Source: Parvibaculum sp.
GTDB lineage: Bacteria > Pseudomonadota > Alphaproteobacteria > Parvibaculales > Parvibaculaceae
Assembly: GCA_019635965.1 (NCBI GenBank)
Contig: JAHBYK010000017.1
Location: forward strand, 1 to 40,037
Length of the DNA stretch: 40,037 bases
Direction: 5' to 3'
The position numbers and the translations under genes are program-made. The notes under the pieces were generated by a model. It was not told the origin of the DNA. It saw only the letters and a program-made list of their open reading frames with translations, and did no database searches. Of this stretch, positions 36,883 through 39,439 are shown in pieces (position 1 is the first letter of the stretch; every line of letters starts with the position of its first letter).

Positions 36883-37647
36883 CTAACCGCGCACACGCTC
36901 ATAAAGCGCGAGGCCGCGATCGGTGATGCGGTCGGTGTAGCGGCGGAAGAAGCGATAGGCATGGTGCAGTGCCGGCGTACCCAGCACCAGCGCGGCGGCG
37001 GCGAAGGTGATGAAACCGCCGCCGACCAGCACATCCGTCATCCAGTGCGCGCCTGCGGCAAGGCGCGGCAGCGAGAAGATCACGGTGAGGCCGAGGGCGA
37101 TGAGGCCGACGCGCCAGCCGAAGCCGAGCCACCAGACAAGCGTGAGCAGCATGGAAACGGTTGCATGATCGCCGGGAAAGCTCGAATTGGAGCCTTCCTT
37201 GGCGCGCGACCAGGAAATGAAATCCTGAATCGAATAGTAGCTGTCGAGCGCGAGCGACGGCGAGAGGCGCGGAAAGGAAATGATCTCGCGCTGAAGCGTG
37301 ATGACGATGCCGAGCAGGATCACGGTCGCCACCGCGAAGGCGAGGCCGTGGCGGAAGCTGTCGATGCCGCCCCGCGAAATGACCGCGAGATAGAAGGAGG
37401 CGAGCACCAGCGCGGAGAAGACGTCGAAGAGACGGTCGCCGGTCAGCGCCCAGAAGGCGGCGATGCCCCGGCCCCAGGTGATGGTGGCGTTCAGCGCCTC
37501 GAAGGCGGCGACATCGAGCGCGTCCCAGGCGGCGCGCGTGGAGGGCAGCAGCCAGGAGACGAAAAGCAGCACCGCAAGACTGACCCAGCCGGCCAAGTGC
37601 TTCATGTTCCAGCGGTTCTCGAAAATGCCAGTCGTCGGGACGTTCAT
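36883..37647 (-). CDS. PAP2-family phosphatase, tandem paralogue of the fusion's N-terminus
   Basis: Polytopic membrane phosphatase of 254 aa. The ATG at 37647 is chosen because MNVPTTGIFENRWNMKHLAG aligns with the start of the upstream fusion protein (GIFENRWDMRQLA); an in-frame ATG at 37665 adds six codons. Active-site motifs: QREIISFPRLSP (motif 1 region), SFPGDHAT (motif 2, PGDH in place of the common PSGH) and LPRLAAGAHWMTD (Arg-x5-His-x3-Asp, motif 3). The nucleophile is His in motif 3. Residue order and length match the fusion's first 240 residues almost gap-free, so it arose by tandem duplication or by loss of DUF368. Likely periplasm-facing lipid diphosphate phosphatase. Confidence 0.88.
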   Translation of the reverse strand: MNVPTTGIFENRWNMKHLAGWVSLAVLLFVSWLLPSTRAAWDALDVAAFEALNATITWGRGIAAFWALTGDRLFDVFSALVLASFYLAVISRGGIDSFRHGLAFAVATVILLGIVITLQREIISFPRLSPSLALDSYYSIQDFISWSRAKEGSNSSFPGDHATVSMLLTLVWWLGFGWRVGLIALGLTVIFSLPRLAAGAHWMTDVLVGGGFITFAAAALVLGTPALHHAYRFFRRYTDRITDRGLALYERVRG

Positions 37648-37665
37648 CGCGGCCGGGTCTCCCAT

Positions 37666-37729: not shown

Positions 37730-39439
37730 TCAAATTGTCGGGATGTGGCGGCCCGCGGCGCCGTCGCCGGGCGCGGCGAGGCGTTGCAGCAGGCGATAGG
37801 CGGCGGCACCGGCCAGCATCGCGCAAAGGCCGATGATGACGCCGGTGTCGAAGGTTTCCGGTAGATAGGCCTGTGTGGCGACGAGATGGCGGGTGCCGCC
37901 GATTTCGACAAATTCGCGGTGCTGAAAGGGCCAGACGGCCAGCAGCGAGCCGCCCATGATGCCTGTGGCGGCGAGCATCAGCGGTTGCGCATGGCGGGCG
38001 AGCAGCGCGCTCAACAGCCGCGACAGGGCGACGGCGCCGAGCACAGCGCCCGCGATCAAGGGGGCGAGATAGGTGAAGTCGATACGCGCCACAGCTTCGA
38101 TCGTCGCCGCGTATTTGCCGAGCACGAGCAGCATGAGCGCGGCGGAAAGGCCGGGCATCATGGCGGCAACAGCGGCGATGAGCCCGCAAAGGAAGAGGAA
38201 CCAGATTTCGTCCGGCGTATCGACCGGCGTCAGCAAGGCCATCGAGATGCCCGCAGCGACACCGAGCACAAGCCAGAGCCATTCGAAGCCGTGCGGCAGG
38301 CCATGACGGCGAAGCATTGTGACGGTGGCGGCGGCGATCACGCCGAAGAACAGGCCGAACATGATCTCCGGCAGTTCCTGCGTCATGAGTTCCAGGGGGA
38401 CAACGCGCGAGAAGAAGGAAATGCCGGCTGCGGCGCCTGCCGTCAGCGTTACGAGAAAGACGAGATCGACATGACGCATCGCATCGAGGAGGCGGCCCGC
38501 GCGCAGGAGGCGCAGCAACTGCGCGTCGAAGCTCGCAATGTCGCGGATGAGACGGCGATAGAGGCCGAGGATCAGCGCAAAGCTTCCGCCGCTGACGCCG
38601 GGCATAAGCTGGGCGATGCCGAGCAGCGTGCCGCGCAGGAAGGGCGCCACGGGATTGGGCCCGCCTTCGCCGGCGCTGCCGATCTTCTCAATGGCGGTGA
38701 GCCAGAGATCGACCGCCCGGTCGGCTGCAAAGCGCGCCGCGCGGTTGAGGTGATGGAGGAGCGGTGTACCGAAGATCAGCGCGGCGGTGAGAAACGTGAC
38801 GAATCCGCCGCCGACCAGCGCATCGGTGAGCCAGTGGGCGCCGGCCGCCATGCGCGGCAGGGCGAAGGCGACAGTGAGGCCGAGCGCGAGAAGGCCGATG
38901 CGGCGCCCATATGCCGCCCACCAGCACAGCGTCAGCAGCATCATCACGGTGGCATGATCGCCGGGGAAACTGTGGGGTGAGGTTTCCTTGGCGCGCGACC
39001 AGGGAATCCAGGACTGGATCGAATGGGCTGTTTCAAGCACCAGCGTCGGCGACAGGCGCGGATATTCGATCAACTCGCGCTGGAGGGCGATCACCACCAG
39101 CAGGATAATCGAGACGGAGATGCCGAAGGCGAGCCCCTGGCGCAGCCGTTCCATATCGCCGCGCGAGATGATGAAGAGATAGACGGTGAGGACGATCATC
39201 GCCGAGAAATAGTCGAAACGGCGGTCGCCTGTGAGCGCCCAGAAGAGTGCGGCGGCTTCATGCAGCGCCACGCTTGCATTCATCAGGCGGAAGAAGCCGA
39301 GGTCTGCCGCATCCCAGACGATGCGCGTGGACGGCAGGAACCAGGAGCCGATGAGAAGCAGCGCCGCGGCGCTCCACAGCGCAAGCTGGCGCATGTCCCA
39401 GCGGTTCTCAAAAATTCCGGTGTCGGCGCGGTCCTGCAT
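37730..39439 (-). CDS. PAP2 phosphatase - DUF368 (PopT-type) fusion protein
   Basis: Membrane protein of 569 aa joining two activities. Residues 1-235: PAP2 phosphatase with Arg121/Arg128 in QRELIEYPRLSP, His162 in SFPGDHAT, and Arg196, His202, Asp206 in LPRMAAGAHWLTD. Residues 240-265: linker (TAIEKIGSAGEGGPNP). Residues 266-550: DUF368 with its two inverted-repeat signatures, IAQLMPGVSGGSFALILGLY (275-294) and AAMMPGLSAALMLLVLGKY (426-443). DUF368 proteins (PopT) were reported in 2023 as undecaprenyl-phosphate translocases; PgpB-type PAP2 enzymes release undecaprenyl phosphate from its diphosphate at the outer leaflet. The fusion would produce and return the carrier. The frame is continuous with no sign of a frameshift. 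Both active sites look intact. Substrates are inferred. Confidence 0.88.
   Translation of the reverse strand: MQDRADTGIFENRWDMRQLALWSAAALLLIGSWFLPSTRIVWDAADLGFFRLMNASVALHEAAALFWALTGDRRFDYFSAMIVLTVYLFIISRGDMERLRQGLAFGISVSIILLVVIALQRELIEYPRLSPTLVLETAHSIQSWIPWSRAKETSPHSFPGDHATVMMLLTLCWWAAYGRRIGLLALGLTVAFALPRMAAGAHWLTDALVGGGFVTFLTAALIFGTPLLHHLNRAARFAADRAVDLWLTAIEKIGSAGEGGPNPVAPFLRGTLLGIAQLMPGVSGGSFALILGLYRRLIRDIASFDAQLLRLLRAGRLLDAMRHVDLVFLVTLTAGAAAGISFFSRVVPLELMTQELPEIMFGLFFGVIAAATVTMLRRHGLPHGFEWLWLVLGVAAGISMALLTPVDTPDEIWFLFLCGLIAAVAAMMPGLSAALMLLVLGKYAATIEAVARIDFTYLAPLIAGAVLGAVALSRLLSALLARHAQPLMLAATGIMGGSLLAVWPFQHREFVEIGGTRHLVATQAYLPETFDTGVIIGLCAMLAGAAAYRLLQRLAAPGDGAAGRHIPTI

Follow-up and report, generated by a model that had tools for sequence, protein, structure and literature searches.

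An LpxT-like PAP2 domain fused to DUF368 in Parvibaculum, and its two diverging paralogs

The fused gene, its surroundings and its distribution

The window, that is, the whole stretch of 40,037 nucleotides analysed here from a Parvibaculum sp. assembly (contig JAHBYK010000017.1), carries on its reverse strand a gene (Table 1) that starts with ATG and runs through 569 codons with no internal stops, joining an N-terminal PAP2 half to a C-terminal DUF368 half. Both families are found over their Pfam cut-offs, PF01569 at residues 142-223 (E 7.9e-9, 35.8 bits versus a cut-off of 27.2) and PF04018, worded by Pfam as 'undecaprenyl phosphate translocase-like', with 195.7 bits versus a cut-off of 26; the continuous PAP2-DUF368 frame claimed in a preliminary description of this DNA is thus borne out, and neither of its family assignments was lost in the profile searches. 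This fusion runs uninterrupted through 23 frames of 16 Parvibaculum genomes, the single-contig genome G013 among them, which excludes an assembly or frame artefact. The form found in the window (hereafter type B) occurs intact in seven species of Parvibaculum, the orthologs of the six other genomes being 62-81% identical to it. The named close relatives of the protein are Parvibaculum metagenome assemblies, and the same sequences as in the window genome, whose assembly is 75% complete, are present in other genomes of the genus. The gene is therefore confirmed as a real fusion of PAP2 and DUF368. A viral contig scan gave no match. Neither half has a close sequence relative in the Protein Data Bank (the best match is PhoN, E 0.028) and, since the AlphaFold2 model (nine sequences) is too poor, with a mean pLDDT of 48.6 and a pTM of 0.37, nothing structural is claimed here.

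Table 1. Positions of the fused gene, its domains and motifs, and the adjacent paralog in the window
Feature	Position	Strand	Details
PAP2-DUF368 fusion gene, type B	37730..39439	(-)	569 aa; ORF and translation, Pfam, orthologs
LpxT-like PAP2 half, N-terminal	38672..39412	(-)	residues 10-256; PF01569, LpxT profile 112 bits, tblastn
PAP2 motif C2, FPGDHA	38951..38968	(-)	residues 158-163 (His162); conserved in 7/7 type B
PAP2 motif C3, R-x5-H-x3-D	38822..38854	(-)	residues 196-206; intact in 7/7 type B
DUF368 / VCA0040-like domain	37916..38623	(-)	residues 273-508; PF04018, E 1.2e-57
DUF368 repeat-1 signature, QLMPGVSGGS	38582..38611	(-)	residues 277-286; Asp277 to Gln, Thr286 to Ser
DUF368 repeat-2 signature, PGLSAAL	38135..38155	(-)	residues 429-435; usual form PGISGSF
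PAP2-only paralog	36883..37665	(-)	260 aa; intact active site; immediately downstream of the fusion gene

The PAP2-only paralog shares 57% identity with the fused PAP2 half and occurs in just three species (that of the window and two more) among the genomes searched; on the other side, the end of uvrB lies upstream on the same strand. The genes of the second fused form (type A) adjoin, in three genomes, galT, galK, GH4 and GH42 genes and an MHYT histidine kinase, an assignment of the galactose genes that is Pfam-confirmed in G013 and, in G001 and G016, judged by how the sequence looks. At L146, L145 and L147 the type A fusion is placed between the galactose-use genes, next to the MHYT-domain histidine kinase. 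Neither context names a pathway.

PF04018 was found in 16 of 27 Parvibaculum genomes (the window's included), each time as part of a fused frame 565-767 aa long. It was absent from the 10 + 13 family members of other genera that were searched, and in a class sample of 386 genomes it exceeded the cut-off in Parvibaculum alone. When 397 genomes from across the phylum were searched, the remaining PF04018 proteins that passed the cut-off had frames of 306-414 aa, except for a single frame of 576 aa that on inspection turned out to be a stand-alone gene of 312 aa. The fused form is thus, in this sample of Pseudomonadota, a Parvibaculum feature, and its gene was probably acquired by transfer into the Parvibaculum lineage. 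Sit et al. 2022 list PAP2-DUF368, DUF368-PAP2 and DUF368-BacA proteins in several microorganisms (PMC9876793). Such architectures served them as a clue to the function of DUF368 proteins, which are C55-P translocases (in agreement with the preliminary description), and to its link with C55-P recycling (PMC9876793). Hence the architecture, which the preliminary description had proposed as a natural link between the two families, has been known since 2022 and is not new, and their PAP2-DUF368 proteins agree with the window protein in domain order and in both Pfam families. Where that article presents the architecture, it does so without the subfamily, paralog and motif analysis given here (PMC9876793).

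The PAP2 half and its kinship with LpxT

The four catalytic residues proposed for the window protein (His162, Arg196, His202 and Asp206) were found where they had been placed, leaving the PAP2 active site intact. The first motif, KX6RP, takes the form R-x6-RL at residues 121-129, with the lysine replaced by Arg121; E. coli LpxT likewise has no aligned lysine there and keeps the arginine. In a tblastn search against plasmid records, residues 32-231 match enterobacterial lpxT/yeiU (~31% identity, E about 1e-15), at a single place per E. coli record, and E. coli LpxT (YeiU) aligns end to end with the PAP2 half at ~31% identity, both proteins having SFPGDH and R-x5-H-x3-D as well as a common N-terminal region that precedes the catalytic core. 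When 16 Parvibaculum PAP2 halves and PAP2-only copies were combined into a profile, the scores among E. coli proteins were 112 bits over 217 residues for LpxT, 31 for YbjG (core only) and about 4 for PgpB; BLASTP matches to PgpB were at chance level, so that the earlier label 'PgpB-type' finds no support in any specific similarity. Judged from these comparisons, the PAP2 half is LpxT-like, closer over its full length to LpxT than to the other E. coli PAP2 proteins, although E. coli LpxT, with 237 aa, stands alone and its Parvibaculum counterpart is joined to DUF368. This kinship rests on profile scores, since the branches of a PAP2-half tree were too long for it to be rooted on the outgroup (YbjG and PgpB).

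LpxT uses C55-PP as phosphate donor and lipid A as acceptor, releasing Und-P; in vitro the E. coli enzyme has C55-PP phosphatase activity, yet it did not sustain a triple phosphatase mutant, and it also accepts diacylglycerol pyrophosphate (PMC2229476). Since the likeness to LpxT spans the whole PAP2 half, the chemistry of this half may be a phosphotransfer from Und-PP to lipid A. Our best guess is that it turns Und-PP into Und-P, and the kinship does not fix the acceptor (lipid A or other). A lipid A acceptor probably exists in the genus, given that lpxC is present in 24 of 27 genomes. More than one LpxC match was seen in G001, G012, G016, G017, G022 and G026 (one match in G026 being a contig-end fragment), so that several species apparently have a second LpxC-like gene.

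LpxT-like PAP2 proteins (E up to 1e-8) were found in 30 of 349 Pseudomonadota genomes, of which the window's own is the only one of its class, and outside Parvibaculum they are stand-alone frames of 236-327 aa. Three of the genomes (G105, G341 and G387) have a tandem pair of LpxT-like PAP2 genes and, in the same genome, stand-alone DUF368.

Two fused paralogs altered in different halves

The 23 fused proteins comprise 16 of type A and seven of type B, both types occurring together in seven genomes; the window genome itself holds a second fused copy, of type A, at C84. In a DUF368 tree with 32 outgroup proteins the two types are reciprocally monophyletic (support 95/92 for clade A, 100/100 for clade B and 100/100 for A and B together), with a stem of 0.85 for type B versus 0.27 for type A, and in the PAP2-half tree the type B halves cluster with the PAP2-only copies (100/100).

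The DUF368 family text reads canonically (A)D-x-VPGVSGGT in the first repeat and LPGISGSF in the second, and the window protein has AQLMPGVSGGS and MMPGLSAAL. The preliminary description had located MPGVSG (279-284) and MPGLS (428-432) correctly, but what it read as the repeats of the family departs from their canonical form. The two-repeat signature of the sequences compared, PGxSGG(T) plus PGxSGS, is likewise replaced in the window protein by PGVSGGS and PGLSAAL. Position 277 is Asp in 34 of 38 stand-alone proteins and in all 16 of type A, Gly433 and Ser434 are each present in 37 of the 38 and both in the 16, and all 16 of type A keep Thr286 and Phe435 as well, as do most stand-alone proteins. 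All seven type B proteins have instead Gln277, Ser or Gly at 286, Ala433, Ala434 and Leu435, in addition to M426A. The D277Q change alone proves nothing, because three distant members from Bacillota or Fusobacteriota have other residues at 277 (Haladaptatus L143, badly aligned in repeat 1, was given no weight there). Most family glycines and prolines are kept in the type B half. Against the NCBIfam model PlprenPhTpVIBCH the window protein scores 162 bits, under the equivalog cut-off of 400, and so does the stand-alone DUF368 protein L029, with 223 bits. Compared with the VCA0040/PopT C55-P translocases, the PF04018 match is common to both fused types, whereas type B alters the signature residues that type A keeps; since these positions are altered in seven of seven orthologs, transport by the window DUF368 half is not to be presumed, and it may possibly be absent.

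The PAP2 half follows the reverse pattern. The four catalytic residues are all present in the seven type B proteins, but in only five of the 16 of type A, where both histidines persist in six copies and a catalytic histidine is missing in ten; motif C2, which the PAP2-only copies also conserve, is altered or lost in most type A copies. These losses, confined to type A, include H162R, H162W, H162A or Y and H202E, and the DUF368-half tree requires at least three changes to explain them. The Pfam PAP2 match was gone in two of the type A proteins tested, the copy of the window genome among them, and the broken copies have a mean identity of 44% in the PAP2 half versus 77% in the DUF368 half. Selection was gauged by pairwise Nei-Gojobori estimates without a formal test, dS being high in some pairs. 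For the PAP2 half, dN/dS is 0.11-0.14 in type A pairs with both histidines and 0.26-0.68 in most broken pairs (the 0.68 from a very small dS), against 0.08-0.15 for the DUF368 half of type A proteins, which by sequence indicates relaxed selection on the PAP2 half of most broken copies; the pair L009/L011 is an exception, with 0.12 in the PAP2 half versus 0.15 in the DUF368 half and no relaxation. Constraint is seen on both type B halves (PAP2 0.13-0.22, DUF368 0.12-0.25), so the altered DUF368 half still serves some function. The paralogs show a reciprocal drift of their halves, and this pair of fused proteins with opposite halves changed, together with the LpxT character, is what is new here.

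One possible account, in which type A lost PAP2 catalysis because type B supplies the activity, was rejected as a full explanation: broken type A copies occur with no type B detected in G005, G008, G009, G013, G023 and G024 (some of them incomplete), and intact ones alongside type B in G001, G012 and G022. BacA, found in 25 of 27 genomes, is another possible source of the activity.

Possible roles of the fused proteins

How undecaprenyl phosphate returns from the outer to the inner leaflet was an unanswered question until DedA and DUF368 proteins were identified. The fused paralogs address a related one, the cooperation of the dephosphorylating enzyme with the flippase: type A, often without phosphatase residues, and type B, with altered translocase residues, are natural mutants of each half, and their presence with the same architecture in one genus makes the coupling directly testable. 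The LpxT kinship would, in addition, link lipid A phosphorylation, beyond hydrolysis, to carrier return.

The reading that we prefer, and to which we give about an even chance, is that of an inner-membrane protein whose LpxT-like PAP2 half makes Und-P and whose derived DUF368 half binds it and returns or presents it, with specialised paralogs. The PAP2 half, whose active site would face the periplasm, would remove a phosphate from undecaprenyl diphosphate, leaving undecaprenyl phosphate, the phosphate going either to lipid A (an LpxT-like transfer) or to water (hydrolysis), and the derived DUF368 module most likely still binds the product before returning or presenting it. In the ancestral fusion, Und-PP most likely gave up its terminal phosphate to lipid A or water at the periplasmic face, and Und-P was returned by the DUF368 half; the fused gene would have come into the Parvibaculum lineage and, after a duplication, taken two specialised forms, type A keeping the canonical translocase half and often losing PAP2 catalysis, and type B keeping PAP2 catalysis with a modified translocase half. 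For the window protein, the Und-P-producing step is then likely and the return step uncertain.

The preliminary description went further, proposing a PgpB-type Und-PP phosphatase that channels Und-P directly into its own, fully active flippase. The logic of coupling stands, the two domains being in one chain with the PAP2 residues intact and such fusions having led Sit et al. 2022 to connect DUF368 with C55-P recycling (PMC9876793), and the ancestor may plausibly have worked in this way. Direct channelling is nevertheless unlikely, and for the window protein unproven, because its PAP2 half is LpxT-like rather than PgpB-like, the DUF368 signature is altered in all type B copies and the model of mean pLDDT 48.6 gives no structural support to a shared path. 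The arrangement is, moreover, broken in many type A paralogs, which keep the fusion in spite of losing PAP2 catalysis, and the repeated loss of this site next to a conserved DUF368 half argues that selection in these paralogs does not maintain obligatory channelling. The signature changes (SGS to SAA, D277Q, T286S/G and M426A in seven of seven type B proteins, against near-invariance elsewhere), the long type B stem and the PAP2-only relative adjoining the window gene would rather suit a type B protein that is effectively an LpxT-like enzyme, with a non-transporting DUF368 half as membrane scaffold or lipid-binding platform. We consider this rather unlikely, since that half is under purifying selection (dN/dS 0.12-0.25) and retains most family glycines and prolines. 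That the halves act on different lipids (for instance another diphosphate lipid for the PAP2 half and another polyprenyl phosphate for the DUF368 half), fused merely for co-expression, is very improbable: PAP2 enzymes are often broad, as the in vitro use of diacylglycerol pyrophosphate by E. coli LpxT illustrates (PMC2229476), and the neighbours of type A are galactose-use genes and the MHYT kinase, not cell-wall genes, but the relatives of both halves converge on C55-P(P) and several architectures listed by Sit et al. 2022 unite the same two functions (PMC9876793).

As a tentative and rather doubtful extension of the preferred reading, labour could be split between the paralogs, type A being a flippase with a retained pseudo-phosphotransferase half and type B an LpxT-like enzyme with a lipid-presenting or regulatory DUF368 half, and the coupling of lipid A phosphorylation to carrier return would then go via partner paralogs and not within one chain. 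Cells probably do not depend on either activity of the fused proteins, since BacA (25 of 27 Parvibaculum genomes, not found in the incomplete G000 and G020) and DedA (26 of 27) are nearly universal in the genus; the window's incomplete genome gave no match to either.

A comparable fusion is known from DedA-PAP2 proteins such as Pseudomonas aeruginosa PA4011, which likewise join a C55-P flippase family to PAP2, although the flippase family is another one (DedA) and the domain order is the reverse of that in the window; PA4011 did not replace the main flippase, PA4029 (PMC12893004). The long Parvibaculum DedA frames were considered as possible DedA-PAP2 fusions, and the one tested (from G013) proved to be PLD-DedA: at L150:2-1471, a DedA (VTT) domain and phospholipase D motifs lie in one frame, a further fusion of the membrane-lipid kind, and DedA frames of 726-764 aa recur across Parvibaculum.
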